From a bacterium (GTDB lineage Bacteria > JAJVIF01), in contig JAJVIF010000002.1 of the NCBI GenBank assembly GCA_022072165.1, forward strand, positions 554,063 to 618,062: DNA of 64,000 nucleotides. The letters are read 5' to 3'. The translations under genes and the position numbers were made by a program. The notes under the pieces were generated by a model, which made no database searches, was not told the origin of the DNA, and saw only the letters and a list, made by a program, of their open reading frames with translations. Below are positions 19,558 to 27,913 of the stretch, one piece after another. Positions within the stretch are counted from its first letter, which is position 1. Each line of letters opens with the position of its first letter.

Positions 19558-20589
19558 ATGCGCCAGACTCTCGCTCCCCTTTCCGGGGCTCTCCTCCTCT
19601 CTGCACTCGCCTTCGCCGGTTGTGGCGGCGGCAGCCAGGTGCCGGCGACTTCTGCCGGTCCCGAACTCATCGCTCCGAAGCCAGCTCCTGAAGCCCGTGG
19701 CGCGATGACCCTGAATGGTGGCCCCGCCAACACTACCGATCTGATCGCTGGCAAGCACTACGATGCCGGCGACATCGAAGTCACCAACGATGGTGACAAC
19801 CTCTATGTGAGATACACCCTGGCGGCTGGCTGGACGATGTCCGAAGCCCATCTGTACGTCGGCACCAGTCTGCCCAGCAAGACGGCCCCCGGTCAGTTCC
19901 CGTACAAAGTCTCCAATCTGGGCGGCGTCACGGAGTACACCTTTACCGTCCCCCTCTCCTGGGAGTGCGGCACGGAGATCTATCTGGCAGCCCACGCGGT
20001 GGTCACCGACAGCAGCGTCGGCGGTGCCGGGACTCAGACCGGTTGGGGCTTTGGCCCCCTCGCCTTCAAAAAGGCCTGGGGCTGGTTCATGACCTACTCA
20101 GTCGAGCCGGTGTGTGAATTGCCCGAGCAGACCATCAGCTTCAAGGTGGCGCATCCCTACGGCAGCATCGCCTACTTCAAGACCCGCTTTACCGGCATCG
20201 GCGCTGGGTACAGCGTCATGGACAACACCGACTACGCGGGCTGGTGCGTCGACCTCTTCCACAACATCACCCCTGGCACCCAGTACACCGGCAAGCTCTA
20301 CAGCAGCTATGACAACAACCTCCCCGCTGACCTGCAGGATGACGACTGGGATCTCGTGAACTACCTGCTGAACCACAAGCAGGGAACCCGCGATGACATC
20401 CAGAAAGCCATCTGGTACTTCATCGGTGGCGGTACTTATCCCACCTCTGCGGCCGCCCAGGCGATGATCGCTGATGCCCAGGCGAATGGGGAGGGGTACG
20501 TCCCCCCGGCTGGCAAGATCACCGCAGTCGTGGTGGATCCGGATCAGAACGTCCAGATCACCATCATCGAGACGGTCTGCGACTGCTAA
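19558..20589 (+). CDS. Thioester-domain-like lipoprotein 1
   Basis: 343 residues. Lipoprotein signal with lipobox Cys22 (AFAGCGGG). Residues 45-190 look like a beta-sandwich (LNGGPANTTDLIAG, then alternating strands, with a TVPLSWECGTEIYLAAHA core). Residues 195-343 resemble the Cys-Gln thioester domain (TED) of surface adhesins: GWCVDLFHNI (Cys230) and, 52 residues on, DIQKAIWYF (Gln282), where TEDs have Q-x-A-[I/L]-W. A thioester between Cys230 and Gln282 would let the protein bond covalently to amine groups; this is inference. AAGAGGTG lies before the ATG. A 343-residue paralogue follows. Confidence 0.72.
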   Translation: MRQTLAPLSGALLLSALAFAGCGGGSQVPATSAGPELIAPKPAPEARGAMTLNGGPANTTDLIAGKHYDAGDIEVTNDGDNLYVRYTLAAGWTMSEAHLYVGTSLPSKTAPGQFPYKVSNLGGVTEYTFTVPLSWECGTEIYLAAHAVVTDSSVGGAGTQTGWGFGPLAFKKAWGWFMTYSVEPVCELPEQTISFKVAHPYGSIAYFKTRFTGIGAGYSVMDNTDYAGWCVDLFHNITPGTQYTGKLYSSYDNNLPADLQDDDWDLVNYLLNHKQGTRDDIQKAIWYFIGGGTYPTSAAAQAMIADAQANGEGYVPPAGKITAVVVDPDQNVQITIIETVCDC

Positions 20590-20624
20590 GTCCCTCAGGC
20601 TTCGGAATCGACAGCCGAACGCCG

Positions 20625-20661
20625 CCGGGCTCCCCATCAGGGGAGCCCGGTGACTTTTTTT
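20625..20661 (+). terminator. Terminator after lipoprotein 1
   Basis: Perfect 11-bp stem CCGGGCTCCCC / GGGGAGCCCGG, loop ATCA, then TGAC and seven T. It separates the tandem paralogues into two transcripts. Confidence 0.93.
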
Positions 20662-20758
20662 GACTGGAAGCAAACCCTCGCAAATCTTGCGACCAGGCCA
20701 GCGGGTCGCCTACCATGCGATGGCTCACACACACACACGCAGGCGCAAGGAAGATTCC

Positions 20759-21790
20759 ATGCCGCGACTTTCACACGTTCTCTCCTGGCCATTGCTGGCC
20801 CTGGTTCTGCTGCTCGCAGGCTGCGGCGGGGGAACCACCACTGCCATCACCGACCAGACTCAGGTCCCGCTGCCGAAACCGGCTCCCGAAGCCCGGAGTG
20901 CCATGTCCCTCAACGGGGGACCCGGCAACACCACCGACTTCATCGCCGGCCAGTTCTACGACGCCGGTGATGTGGAAGTCACCAACACGGGCACCGAACT
21001 GATTGTCCACATCACGTTATCTGGCGGTTGGGTGATGACAGCGACTCACCTTTACGTCGGCACCACTATCCCCAAGAGCACCGCCCCTGGTTCGTTTCCC
21101 TATAAAGCGCTGGACCTGCCGCTGGTGACGGAGTACACCTACACCGTCCCCCTGACCTGGGACTGTGGCTCCGAAATCTTTCTGGCGGTCCATGGCAATG
21201 TACAAAAACAGACGCCTTTCGGCTGGTTAACCCAATCCGCCTGGGGCAAGGGGCCCATTAAGTTCAAAAAGGGCTGGGGCTGGTTCCTGAGCTACGAGAT
21301 CGAGCCGGTCTGCCAGCTCCCGGCGGATGTGACCTCCTTCCGCATTCGCTATCCCAACAGTCCCACCGCCTTCTTCCGGACTCGCTTCTTCGATGTGCCC
21401 CCGGGGATGACGATCCAGAACGACGTCGACTACTCCGGCTGGTGTGTCGACCTGTTCCACAATATCCCACCGCCCCGCCTGCACACGGGCCGGCTGTGGT
21501 CCACCTATGACAACGCCCTGCCAGCCCATCTGCAGGACGATGACTGGGATCTGGTGAACTACCTGCTGAACAACCGGCAGGGAGCGGTTGACGATGTCCA
21601 GGAAGCTCTCTGGTACTTCGTTGGCGGCGGTGGGTATCCCTACTCGACCGTAGCGCAGGAGATGGTCGAGGATGCGCTGGCGAACGGCGAAGGCTTCGTG
21701 CCGGGACCGGACGAGAAAATCGCCATCGTGGTGGACCCGGTTCAGGACATCCAGATCACCATCATCGAGGCGATCTGCGACTGCTCATAA
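20759..21790 (+). CDS. Thioester-domain-like lipoprotein 2
   Basis: 343 residues, the same length as its tandem neighbour and alignable throughout. Lipobox Cys22 (LLLAGCGGG). The candidate thioester pair is kept: Cys229 in SGWCVDLFHNI and Gln281 in DVQEALWYF. Both proteins share KPAPEAR, LNGGP-NTTD, the LQDDDWDLVNYLLN segment and a C-terminal Cys-Asp-Cys. Conservation of the Cys and Gln between diverged copies supports a functional role. AAGGAA lies 8 nt before the ATG. The pair differs mostly in surface loops. Confidence 0.72.
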   Translation: MPRLSHVLSWPLLALVLLLAGCGGGTTTAITDQTQVPLPKPAPEARSAMSLNGGPGNTTDFIAGQFYDAGDVEVTNTGTELIVHITLSGGWVMTATHLYVGTTIPKSTAPGSFPYKALDLPLVTEYTYTVPLTWDCGSEIFLAVHGNVQKQTPFGWLTQSAWGKGPIKFKKGWGWFLSYEIEPVCQLPADVTSFRIRYPNSPTAFFRTRFFDVPPGMTIQNDVDYSGWCVDLFHNIPPPRLHTGRLWSTYDNALPAHLQDDDWDLVNYLLNNRQGAVDDVQEALWYFVGGGGYPYSTVAQEMVEDALANGEGFVPGPDEKIAIVVDPVQDIQITIIEAICDCS

Positions 21791-21819: not shown

Positions 21820-21847
21820 ACGGCTCCCTGCAACGGGGAGCCGTTTT
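21820..21847 (+). terminator. Terminator after lipoprotein 2
   Basis: Arms ACGGCTCCC and GGGAGCCGT with a short loop, ending in TTTT. Same design as the terminator behind the first copy. Confidence 0.85.
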
Positions 21848-21878
21848 GCTGTCCCGTTCAAATGGCGCAGTGTGTCGC

Positions 21879-23334: not shown

Positions 23335-26300
23335 TTACCAGGTCAGGTTGGACTGCAAACCCAGCAGGTAGGCATCCCGCGTCCCGACCTGCGTCCGGGT
23401 CTGTGTCCCGGCACCAGGGTCGAAGTCGACACTGGGTGAATTGAACGTGCCGGCGATCCGCGGCTCATTGAGCGCGTTGATCGCTATGAACACCGCGTCT
23501 TCATCGGATGTTCCACCATAAGTGGCCACACTCTCGTACAAACCAGCCGCGCTCAGTGCCAGGATATAGGCATCCGAAGCACCAGCACTGCTCCGGTTCA
23601 CGACTCCACCGCCGGGGTCAAAGTCAACGGTGCCAGTAAAGTTGCCGCTGATCCGTACCGCGCCTGCCGATGTCAGCGCGATGGCTCGTCCCTGATCCAG
23701 CAACGTGCTCCCCCAGAAGCGACCATAGTTCAGCACACCGAGGGTGAGTGGCCAGGATGTCAGATAGGCATCCTGATCGCCCGCTGACGTACTGGTCACC
23801 GCCGTACCGTAGGGGTTGAAGTTCACCGTACCCGTGTACCCCCCGGTGACAAAGACGGTCGTGGCATTCAGCGCGATGGCATTGGCGTACTCGTTTGTGG
23901 CGCCGCCCCACCGGCGATTCCCTACATAGGCTCCTGCCAGCGAGACCCCGCAGTAGAAGGCATCAAACCCTCCATTGGATGTCAGCGAGGTCGTACCGGA
24001 AGTGGGGTTGAGATCCGCCGAACCCTGGAAGTAGCCGCTCATCCAGATGGTGCCATCGCTCGCCATCGCGACGCCGGTGATCAGATCGGTACCCGTCCCA
24101 CCAGAGAGCCCCCCATGCAGGAAGGTGGCCGGCATATCGAGGGTCACATAGAAGCCGTCGAAGCTCCCAAAGTTTGTTCGCATCTGCACCCCGGCACCGG
24201 GATCGAAGTCCGCATTGCCGCTGACGCTGCCGCCGATGGCAAAGCGTGATGCTCCAGGCTGCTTCGAGATCGTGCTGATGCGCACCAACGCCCCACCACC
24301 GGCGAACTGATCCACCCGCACGAACTCGCCCGCCGCCTGGGTCAGGTGCAGCAGGTAGCCATCGCCAGCGCCAACCCGCGACAGGGTCTGGACGCCAGCG
24401 CCGGGATCAAAGTCCATACTGGTTGACACAAAGTACCCCCCCACGACCACGTTGCCATTTTCCAGATTCGCAATGGCGAGTCCGAATTCCTGGCCAGTAC
24501 CTCCCACCGTCGCCACCCAACGGAACGCGCCATAAGGATCCAGGGAAAGGCAGTAGATATCGTCAGTGCCCGCACTGGTGCGATTCTGTGTCCCGGCGCC
24601 GGGGTCGAAGTCGACAGTTCCCTGGAAGGTCCCGGCAATGTAGGCATTCCCACTGCCATCCAGACAGACCCCAATCGCCGTGGTGACTCCACCCGAAGCT
24701 CCCCAGGTCATGGCGAAACTGGATGTCAGCACCGTGCCCACCCGGGTCGGGGAGAACGCGGTCCCGGTCGCGCTTGTGGGATGCAATGGATCAGTCGCGT
24801 AGGTGGTGAACGTCACCGATGAGGTGCCTGGGTTGGTGTACGGCCCCAGCCCCGTGATCGGAAACGACGTCCCGCTCGCTTTAGGCGAGCCGGGAGTGAG
24901 GTTGTCATACACCCGGAAGGTGATGAGGTCGCCTTCGGGATCTGTGACATTGAAACCTGGCACTACAGTTCCGGCGTTCATCTGGAAACTCTGACCACTC
25001 TGAATGGTGCTCGCCGCCAGGCTCACATTGGTCAGCGGCATGATCGTTGGCGCACGGTTGGCACCCAGGGTTGTCGACAGATTGGGGGCATCAATGGGGG
25101 TCACCACGATGCCATCGCTGTAACGCACGTTGATGGTTCGGACCTGCGGGCTGGCAGTGGAATTGGCCCAGATGCCCGACGGCGAGGTGTAGGTCGGGAG
25201 CGGGGCATACGGCGGATTAATGACCCCCGCCACCACGAAACTGTTGGCTCCTCCATCCCAGTCAATCTCCACCGTGATGGGATTGTTGTCCGGCTCAAAA
25301 GCACTGGTGACCTGCACGGTATGGGTGGTCGACAGCCCGGAAATCACGGTCCCCGGAGTCGAGAAGGTCGCCACGGGTGGATCGTTCGGTACGGTCATGA
25401 CCACCTGGAAGGCCTGATACGCCACCGGCTCGGGCAGGGCATCCGACCCGGTCAGCGGCAGTGGCGGGACCACCGCGCCGTTCAGCGGGAAGTACCAGGT
25501 GATCCGGCTGGCAAGGTTGATTTCGGGGTCGGCCACCCGGACCAGGCCGGTGTACAGCCCGTTGACCTGCCCCGACGTGATCGACTTGGTGACAGTATGC
25601 CGGAAGTAGAGCGGATCCCCTGGCTCCCCGCTGTCCTGCGCCGCATCCCCACCATACGCGCTGTCATCATCTGTCAGTGCGCCACCGGGGAAGGTCACGA
25701 CTGCCGTGGCATCCCCCAGGACTCCCGGAATACAGACACTGAGGCTGGGGGCACCATTCGCACCGACCGGGACCGTCATCGGGTTGGGATCATCCGCGAG
25801 GTCAGCTGCACTGGTGCCGGTTGCCCGGGCATCCCAGTCGACGACATGAAAGCGAAGCTCGCTGGCCGAGATGGCATTTGTATAGAACCCGCCTCCCTCA
25901 CCGAGGAAGCTGATCCGCTCCACATCAAGCGACCCATGCGGCTCGCGATAGATAAAGTTCGTCACATTGGCCGGGCTGGAGGGCAATCGATTGGCGCGCT
26001 TCGCTACGCCCGAGGCACCACCCCGGGGGTCCGTGAACTTCGCCAGTAGCGCGACATCGAAGCTGAAGCCCGCACCCAGCTGGGAGCGTCGGAGGGAAAT
26101 CGTGTCCCGGATCGCCTGCCCCTGATGCAGCACACCGTAACCGGTCCAGCCATTCCGATTCGGGCCGATGTTCGTGCCCTGCCACCCGGTGGTGGCGTTG
26201 TAGTTCCCCGTTACCGTGCCACCATTGCTGATGGCTGAGCCGGTATTGGGATCCAGGCGGGGGTCCAGAGTCTCGTTCACCAGTGCGCGATACGGAAAGG

Positions 26301-26928
26301 TGTTCGCGAGGAATCCGCTGATGTCCAGCAGGTCATTCGGCTTGTAGTACCCATCGGCGTTGGTCACCAGGTTGGTGTTCACCAGCACGCTGTCGGTTCC
26401 GGAGAAGTAGGTGCTGCCGATGATGCTTGGGGTATCCACCATGTAGAGCACCCGGCCACTAATGCCCAGGTCCGCCCGATTCGCGGCGGTCGCAGGAGCG
26501 CTGAGGTTGCTGGGGGCCGGGAAGGGATGCGCCAGCTGGTACGTCAGATCGACGGTCGTTGCCGTCCCGGTAACTCCCACGATCTTGAGGTCCGAGGGCT
26601 TGAAGTAAACCGAGATGTCCAGTTCATACTGGTCATCAGTCGCCTGTCCACTCCGACTCTGCGCTAGCCCGGCGGTTGCCGTCAGCGTTGACGGGTCCAC
26701 AGAGATTCGATAAAGCGCGGTTGCCCCCTCGAACACTCCGGCACCATCCACAAGCCCACCTATGCCGGCAGACGGGGATTCCGTGCGGGGTCCAGCAGCA
26801 GCTTGTGGAAGAGGAACGGATGAAGTGCTGAGCGGCGACTGATCGGCGGTAGGCAGCGTTGCTGAGCCACCGGAACATCCGACCAGCGCAAGTGCGACTG
26901 CGGGGAGCAGCCAACGCATTTCAGGCAT
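23335..26928 (-). CDS. Giant lipoprotein with beta-propeller (SBBP-type) repeats
   Basis: 1197 residues. Lipobox Cys18 (LALVGC). The N-terminal 500 residues share blocks with the lipoprotein at 56873 (AHPFPAP, AANRADL, GWTGYGVLHQGQ, EPHGSLDVERISF). About 590-780 resemble Ig/cadherin-like segments (TVEIDWDGG, DPEGDLITFRVYDN). The last 420 residues repeat a unit near 65 residues with the marker DFDPGAGxQ preceded by G-x-F-x-G, as in SBBP beta-propeller proteins. Likely a cell-surface protein; ligand unknown. AAGGAGG lies 7 nt before the ATG. Confidence 0.75.
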   Translation of the reverse strand: MPEMRWLLPAVALALVGCSGGSATLPTADQSPLSTSSVPLPQAAAGPRTESPSAGIGGLVDGAGVFEGATALYRISVDPSTLTATAGLAQSRSGQATDDQYELDISVYFKPSDLKIVGVTGTATTVDLTYQLAHPFPAPSNLSAPATAANRADLGISGRVLYMVDTPSIIGSTYFSGTDSVLVNTNLVTNADGYYKPNDLLDISGFLANTFPYRALVNETLDPRLDPNTGSAISNGGTVTGNYNATTGWQGTNIGPNRNGWTGYGVLHQGQAIRDTISLRRSQLGAGFSFDVALLAKFTDPRGGASGVAKRANRLPSSPANVTNFIYREPHGSLDVERISFLGEGGGFYTNAISASELRFHVVDWDARATGTSAADLADDPNPMTVPVGANGAPSLSVCIPGVLGDATAVVTFPGGALTDDDSAYGGDAAQDSGEPGDPLYFRHTVTKSITSGQVNGLYTGLVRVADPEINLASRITWYFPLNGAVVPPLPLTGSDALPEPVAYQAFQVVMTVPNDPPVATFSTPGTVISGLSTTHTVQVTSAFEPDNNPITVEIDWDGGANSFVVAGVINPPYAPLPTYTSPSGIWANSTASPQVRTINVRYSDGIVVTPIDAPNLSTTLGANRAPTIMPLTNVSLAASTIQSGQSFQMNAGTVVPGFNVTDPEGDLITFRVYDNLTPGSPKASGTSFPITGLGPYTNPGTSSVTFTTYATDPLHPTSATGTAFSPTRVGTVLTSSFAMTWGASGGVTTAIGVCLDGSGNAYIAGTFQGTVDFDPGAGTQNRTSAGTDDIYCLSLDPYGAFRWVATVGGTGQEFGLAIANLENGNVVVGGYFVSTSMDFDPGAGVQTLSRVGAGDGYLLHLTQAAGEFVRVDQFAGGGALVRISTISKQPGASRFAIGGSVSGNADFDPGAGVQMRTNFGSFDGFYVTLDMPATFLHGGLSGGTGTDLITGVAMASDGTIWMSGYFQGSADLNPTSGTTSLTSNGGFDAFYCGVSLAGAYVGNRRWGGATNEYANAIALNATTVFVTGGYTGTVNFNPYGTAVTSTSAGDQDAYLTSWPLTLGVLNYGRFWGSTLLDQGRAIALTSAGAVRISGNFTGTVDFDPGGGVVNRSSAGASDAYILALSAAGLYESVATYGGTSDEDAVFIAINALNEPRIAGTFNSPSVDFDPGAGTQTRTQVGTRDAYLLGLQSNLTW

Positions 26929-27055
26929 GGTGAGCCTCCTTGAATGCGAGATGTGCGTGAGCAGGTTAGCTGTGCATTGTGGGCCTGATTTTGGCCAATT
27001 GTCCAGTGAAACAGCCCTCAAGATGCGAGTTGGCCGCATCACAACCACGCCACTT

Positions 27056-27913
27056 TTATCCCTTGGTCGGGAAGGCTCCGGCACGCAACAAAATCACGGT
27101 CACTAAAAACAGCAGGATGCCGAAGGCCCACGCGAAACCATTGTAAATCTGCAGCACCAGACGACGCTGTCGTTCTTCGGCCTGATCCTCCACCAGATGC
27201 TGTCCCAGGGCCATCACCTGCGGATCCGTGGGCGCCAGGGCGTGGTACCGCTCCAGATAGAACTGCGCGGGCTCATAGTGACGCAGCTTCAGGTGGAGCT
27301 TGTGCAGCAGCAACCAGGGCTTCGCGAGATGTGGCGCCAGACTCGTCGCCCGCTCCCCCAGGACCACCGCCTCTTCCCAGTACCCCTGTCGTGCCCGCAA
27401 GAGGGCAAGGTTGTAAAAGCCCTTCGCCCCTTCCTCAACGCGCAGTTGCTCTTCCAGTTGTTGCAGGCGCAGATTGATCTCGCCATAGAGGGGATCGCCC
27501 TGCTTCAGTAGTCGCCCGAACTCGGCATACAACAGGATGGCGTGTTGAAATGCCTTCTCGAACTCCGCCGCCTGCGCTTCCAGATAGAGGGCTGCCAGCC
27601 CTGCCCGCTGGTCCACTTCCCGGGCGAGTTCCAGCCGGACCCGGCCATCAGTGATCTGGCCCTGTGCGATTTCCAGGGCCGCCTCCCTCAGGAGATGCGC
27701 GGCAAAGCTGGTGAGGGCGCGATGGGCCTCCAGGGGAGAGGCGCAATGGGGGCACTCATCGGGGACAGGATCTTGCAGTTCGCCTTCACAAAACGGACAC
27801 TCTGGCAATAGCCCTAAGCCGAACTCCTGCAGCAGCGCATCAACGCTTCCGCCGCCCCCAGGGAAGGGCAGCGACCCGGGGACCATGTCCGGTGCGAGGG
27901 GTTCAGCAGGCAT
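27056..27913 (-). CDS. Zinc-ribbon / TPR membrane protein
   Basis: 285 residues. A four-cysteine zinc ribbon (CPFC near 39 and CPHC near 54) is followed by helical TPR-like repeats (NLALLRARQGYWEEAVVLGERA and a following pair) and one C-terminal span (FAWAFGILLFLVTVILL). This layout, with ribbon and TPRs in the cytoplasm on a tail anchor, parallels the J-domain protein at 21879. A TATACT lies about 17 nt before the ATG. No specific family recognised. Confidence 0.65.
   Translation of the reverse strand: MPAEPLAPDMVPGSLPFPGGGGSVDALLQEFGLGLLPECPFCEGELQDPVPDECPHCASPLEAHRALTSFAAHLLREAALEIAQGQITDGRVRLELAREVDQRAGLAALYLEAQAAEFEKAFQHAILLYAEFGRLLKQGDPLYGEINLRLQQLEEQLRVEEGAKGFYNLALLRARQGYWEEAVVLGERATSLAPHLAKPWLLLHKLHLKLRHYEPAQFYLERYHALAPTDPQVMALGQHLVEDQAEERQRRLVLQIYNGFAWAFGILLFLVTVILLRAGAFPTKG

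Follow-up and report, generated by a model that had tools for sequence, protein, structure and literature searches.

Tandem genes for two lipoproteins

The window, a stretch of 64,000 nucleotides from a bacterial contig, carries two adjacent genes for lipoproteins of 343 residues, and these raise the question of whether a thioester domain (TED) can occur on a lipid anchor and, if so, which residues would form its bond. Documented TEDs sit mainly in sortase-anchored adhesins. They have been described in Gram-positive bacteria (PMC4450167, PMC6194298, PMC8092201), and a survey from 2015 reported them exclusively from this group (PMC4450167). The original prediction had noticed in both copies a GWCVD cysteine and, 52 residues later, the glutamine of a Q-x-A-[I/L]-W motif, and had also assigned a terminator to each gene. 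The motifs are seen in both proteins at this spacing (Cys230 and Gln282 in copy 1, Cys229 and Gln281 in copy 2), both open reading frames exist, and both lipoboxes end at Cys22. The elements of the locus are:

19558 to 20589, plus strand: lipoprotein gene 1 (P0001), open reading frame of 343 amino acids, stop included
19612 to 19623, plus strand: lipobox FAGC of copy 1 with the predicted lipidated Cys22, read from the sequence, LspA being encoded in the genome
20623 to 20662, plus strand: intrinsic terminator of gene 1, hairpin 20623 to 20652 followed by seven T
20759 to 21790, plus strand: lipoprotein gene 2 (P0002), open reading frame of 343 amino acids, stop included
20813 to 20824, plus strand: lipobox LAGC of copy 2 with the predicted lipidated Cys22, read from the sequence
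21820 to 21848, plus strand: terminator-like hairpin of gene 2, hairpin 21820 to 21844 with a short U tail

The hairpin behind gene 1 is strong (-31.4 kcal/mol, z -6.5), and the one behind gene 2 (-20.5 kcal/mol, z -3.7) has a weaker U tail, so that each copy does appear to be terminated on its own. In a pairwise comparison, the two proteins were 57-58% identical. Since dN (0.34) is well under dS (1.1), both copies are under purifying selection. A gene for signal peptidase II (LspA) is present in the source genome, as are three genes for Omp85 proteins, and the latter indicate that the source organism is a diderm.

The C-terminal domain has a predicted thioester-domain fold

Each protein contains a companion beta-domain followed by a C-terminal domain, with the key residues placed as follows:

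19690 to 20112, plus strand: companion beta-domain of copy 1 (residues 45-185), without a Pfam name
20113 to 20586, plus strand: predicted TED of copy 1 (residues 186-343), from the fold model and Foldseek
20245 to 20247, plus strand: Cys230 of copy 1, predicted to form the thioester, kept in 63/63 domains
20401 to 20403, plus strand: Gln282 of copy 1, TQxAIW-type glutamine of helix alpha2 and not the bond partner, 58/63 with Glu in five (PMC6194298)
20554 to 20556, plus strand: Gln333 of copy 1, last strand, predicted to form the thioester, kept in 61/61 domains
20888 to 21310, plus strand: companion beta-domain of copy 2, from a profile match
21311 to 21787, plus strand: predicted TED of copy 2 (residues 185-343)
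21443 to 21445, plus strand: Cys229 of copy 2, predicted thioester cysteine, from conservation
21599 to 21601, plus strand: Gln281 of copy 2, helix glutamine, from conservation
21752 to 21754, plus strand: Gln332 of copy 2, predicted thioester glutamine, from conservation

The C-terminal 163 residues (181-343) were modelled with AlphaFold2 from the query and 60 relatives (61 sequences), and folded with a pLDDT of 95.4 and a pTM of 0.91. The model consists of two strands, a third strand ending in Cys230, a fourth strand, three helices, a further strand and the last strand; Gln282 lies on the second of the three helices, and the last strand starts just past Gln333. In solved TEDs, strand C bears the cysteine, alpha2 the TQxxPhiW motif and strand Q the glutamine (PMC6194298), and by strand order the model puts Cys230 and Gln333 where solved TEDs have theirs. 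When the model was searched against the PDB with Foldseek, the best eleven matches were all TEDs (5a0g, 5a0l, 4c0z, 5a0d and 5a0n), the first of them with an E-value of 7e-4 and a probability of 1.00, while the first non-TED had a probability of 0.04. TM-scores to the TEDs were moderate (0.48-0.55 by query length).

At the level of sequence the link runs through the relatives. The Pfam TED family PF08341 matched 23 of the 61 family members and the next family only two; TQXA_dom (TIGR03934) and 'thioester-forming surface-anchored protein' matched two members each. Among ten relatives scored individually, two passed the PF08341 gathering cut-off of 22 bits (L069 with 25.5 bits and L078 with 23.1 bits). 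The two proteins of the window gave no PF08341 match even at E 10, and direct Pfam and NCBIfam scans of both returned nothing meaningful. Searching PDB chains by sequence, from P0001 as well as A2 and A4, yielded nothing or chance matches only. No match was obtained in a PF08341 search of the source genome either, which says little alone, as control searches were equally empty. A profile-profile comparison with six canonical TEDs was weak (E 0.0046, probability 7.6%); the alignment covers the cysteine and the helix and not the last strand, and pairs GWCVD with AYCGD and IQKAIW with TQYALW. These results support a thioester-domain fold for the predicted C-terminal domain of both lipoproteins. 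The assignment put forward originally is thus upheld by the fold model, by Foldseek and by PF08341 through relatives, and not by a direct PF08341 match of the proteins themselves.

A full-length model could be built from four sequences and was poor (pLDDT 51). Its companion domain gave a mixed Foldseek list of beta-sandwich folds (CBM56, DsbD-alpha, Cpa), which was not relied on.

The last-strand glutamine as the probable partner of the cysteine

The original prediction took Gln282, 52 residues after Cys230, to be the bond partner. In characterised TEDs, the thioester joins the cysteine to the glutamine of the last strand, while the Gln and Trp of the QxAxW motif sit on a helix adjoining the bond and form hydrogen bonds to the cysteine backbone (PMC4450167, PMC6194298). 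Neither of these helix residues is required for thioester formation, as mutagenesis has shown for the glutamine (PMC4450167, PMC6194298), with Cpa as the example in PMC4450167. Conservation was counted over 63 domains from bacteria and archaea, 61 of which cover the last-strand glutamine. The Cys230 column was kept in 63/63 domains and the Gln333 column in all 61 that reach it; both belong to the five fully invariant columns of the family (P189, W229, C230, N272 and Q333). The helix glutamine was kept in 58/63; the other five have Glu at this position and retain both the cysteine and the last-strand glutamine. In an alignment of six canonical TEDs, the cysteine and the last-strand glutamine were again invariant (C51 and Q170 among the invariant columns), whereas three of the six (L088, L092 and L093) lack the helix glutamine in the corresponding motif. 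Given the invariance of the one pair and the replacement or loss of the helix glutamine, the bond pair suggested by sequence is most likely Cys230-Gln333 (Cys229-Gln332 in copy 2), 103 residues apart.

A bond between Cys230 and Gln282 would agree with the equal spacing of 52 residues in both copies and with the position of the helix glutamine near the cysteine in solved TEDs (PMC6194298). This adjacency does not discriminate, since the helix glutamine touches the cysteine in those structures too, and since any TED should place the two side by side, a model that shows Gln282 next to Cys230 would be no evidence for the pairing. With Glu in five relatives that keep both other residues, with no helix glutamine in three canonical TEDs, and with a Cpa bond that does without it (PMC4450167), we rejected this pair, which has next to no probability; Gln282 corresponds instead to the helix glutamine of TEDs.

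The motifs themselves amount to more than chance, given the retention of the cysteine in all 63 domains and of the helix glutamine in 58, and a dN well under dS. Both copies read WCVD at the cysteine, in agreement with the TED pattern [YFL]C-hydrophobic-hydrophilic except for the W before Cys. On helix 98-108 of the model, DIQKAIW and DVQEALW follow TQxx-hydrophobic-W with T changed to I or V, and VQITII and IQITII follow the weak last-strand motif (hydrophobic-Q-hydrophilic-hydrophobic-hydrophobic), loosely at its hydrophilic third place.

Conservation also bears on two other readings. Copy 1 has further cysteines at positions 137, 186, 341 and 343 besides Cys22 and Cys230, so Cys230 might be an ordinary disulfide or metal-site cysteine. 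However, every other cysteine column is occupied in at most 23 of 63 sequences, which leaves no conserved partner for Cys230, and a disulfide role was rejected; we consider this reading very improbable. Alternatively, the fold could be TED-related and form no thioester, with Cys and Gln serving a structural role and any binding being non-covalent. The Pfam score of the window proteins, which is below detection, would be compatible with this, but both residues that form the bond in TEDs are invariant across bacteria and archaea despite identities of 22-30% in many relatives, which makes the loss of the bond an improbable alternative to a Cys230-Gln333 thioester.

Comparison with known thioester proteins

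The predicted fold resembles class I TEDs (SfbI-TED 5A0L, CpTIE 5A0G, PnTIE 5A0N and Cpa 4C0Z) in the order of strands and helices, with the cysteine on the mid strand, QxA[I/L]W on a helix and the glutamine on the last strand, at an identity of about 10-14%. The window proteins differ from them in having a W before the cysteine instead of Y, F or L, and a Cys-Gln spacing of 103 residues versus 115-142 in the six TEDs compared. Moreover, TIE proteins are defined by an N-terminal TED, an isopeptide or ester stalk and an LPXTG signal, whereas here the TED is C-terminal, the lipobox is N-terminal, and both window proteins are without an LPXTG signal or an isopeptide or ester stalk domain. Class II TEDs (BaTIE, SaTIE and EfmTIE86) are alike in the head lobe and its residues, but carry a beta-sandwich insert of about 75 residues from helix 3 to strand P (PMC6194298), where the window domain has a link of about 10 residues.

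Bacterial alpha-2-macroglobulins are likewise lipid-anchored proteins of diderms with an internal Cys-Gln thioester, as proposed for the window proteins. They are large multi-domain proteins of a fold unrelated to the TED, and their CxEQ motif, in which Gln follows Cys at a distance of three residues, is absent from the window proteins.

A model for anchoring and attachment

Each gene would encode an outer-membrane-type lipoprotein of a diderm, with a lipidated Cys22, a short linker, the beta-rich companion and the divergent TED at the C-terminus. Folding would set Cys230 on strand C against Gln333 on the last strand, and the two side chains would react spontaneously, releasing ammonia, to give an internal thioester against which Gln282 and Trp286 of the helix may pack. 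A particular amine, such as a lysine on a partner surface or matrix protein, could then attack the thioester, by which the lipoprotein would become covalently bound and the cell tethered. We consider this explanation as a whole likely, from the divergent lipid-anchored TED to the Cys230-Gln333 thioester, the capture of an amine and the tethering of the cell.

The strongest rival accepts the thioester and turns it inwards: facing the periplasm, it would tie the lipoprotein to an envelope component or to its paralogue, as a staple rather than an outward adhesin. A lipobox alone does not confer surface exposure, and the copies are adjacent paralogues. The neighbouring genes code for a nucleotidyltransferase, a DnaJ-TPR protein and an NAD-dependent epimerase, of which the last two are housekeeping genes rather than adhesion systems; neither adhesion genes nor target candidates were found among these neighbours. 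However, archaeal relatives, including many from Thermoplasmatota, often carry the TED close to the N-terminus and end in a membrane helix, an arrangement that points the TED outward in cells without a diderm-type periplasm, and the TEDs studied experimentally are surface proteins (PMC4450167, PMC6194298). We therefore regard a periplasmic orientation as unlikely, and outward display with a probable adhesive role as the preferred reading.

Adjoining the DnaJ-TPR gene, a putative lipoprotein of 1249 residues, without Pfam matches at E 0.001, is encoded at 23338-27084 on the minus strand.

Distribution and architectures of the family

Within the window's small phylum, copies of the same architecture were found in just two further genomes (L003 and L004), whose sequences are identical to loci L010 (bacterium isolate AUK107) and L012 (Planctomycetota bacterium CSMAG_1386). 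A contig scan with the C-terminal alignment detected relatives in records labelled Nanoarchaeota, Thermoplasmatota, Euryarchaeota, Bathyarchaeota, Dehalococcoidia, Bacteroidales and Flagellimonas, many of them diverged to 22-30% identity. The family was present in 22/293 genomes from the phylum of the Thermoplasmatota locus and in 15/301 genomes from the family of the Flagellimonas locus, with several close copies in some genomes; outside the window's phylum it was rare (2 of about 380 genomes). Three genomes from the phylum of the Thermoplasmatota locus, G479 (L040/L057), G493 (L039) and G511 (L042/L059), have three to five TED matches each, several of them close together on one contig. A search of IMG/VR for relatives found none. 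In BFVD, the one viral match of note to the predicted TED was A0A481Z1C1, a collagen-repeat protein of Mimivirus LCMiAC01 (E 2.8e-3 and probability 1.00 by Foldseek); it would be unusual for a collagen-like protein of a virus to carry a TED.

In the archaeal locus L008, as in the window's class, the companion domain is whole and lies N-terminal to the TED; in L014 and L015 it lies C-terminal to it. Bacteroidales L013 and roughly a dozen other relatives, most of them from Flavobacteriaceae, have a TED that interrupts the companion domain, of which profile positions of about 12-119 precede the insertion and 127-149 follow; Cpa is a precedent for such an insertion into another domain (PMC6194298). 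Flavobacteriaceae members mostly have lipoboxes too. Thus, the lipid anchor proposed originally is borne out by the lipoboxes of both copies, while its being unique to the source genome is ruled out by these relatives.

The window domain falls into a branch of TEDs that had gone unrecognised in diderm bacteria and archaea; its members are lipid- or membrane-anchored and often inserted in a companion beta-domain. In an incomplete coverage of the literature, no link of TEDs to archaea, Bacteroidetes or lipoproteins was found, and PF08341 may already include, unremarked, canonical TEDs from other bacteria. On balance, we lean towards a working TED branch, mostly invisible to current profiles, in diderm bacteria (the window's phylum and Bacteroidota) and several archaeal phyla. 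If this is true, covalent attachment by thioester is not an invention of Gram-positive bacteria tied to sortase; lipid anchors or membrane helices can display the TED, which can also be built into a companion beta-domain. Should the bond form, covalent adhesion would be far older and wider, reaching into uncultured lineages, and a compact domain of 163 residues with Cys and Gln about 103 apart would offer a small covalent tag.

Some further architectures were observed. The companion domain is split by the TED insertion in L013, L055, L063, L068, L070-L076, L078, L079 and L082, from Bacteroidota and some others, and in L005 the last companion segment precedes the remainder, like a circular permutation. 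L009 (Bathyarchaeota) and L011 (Dehalococcoidia) have in common a second C-terminal region that follows the TED and starts with TPGFWKN.
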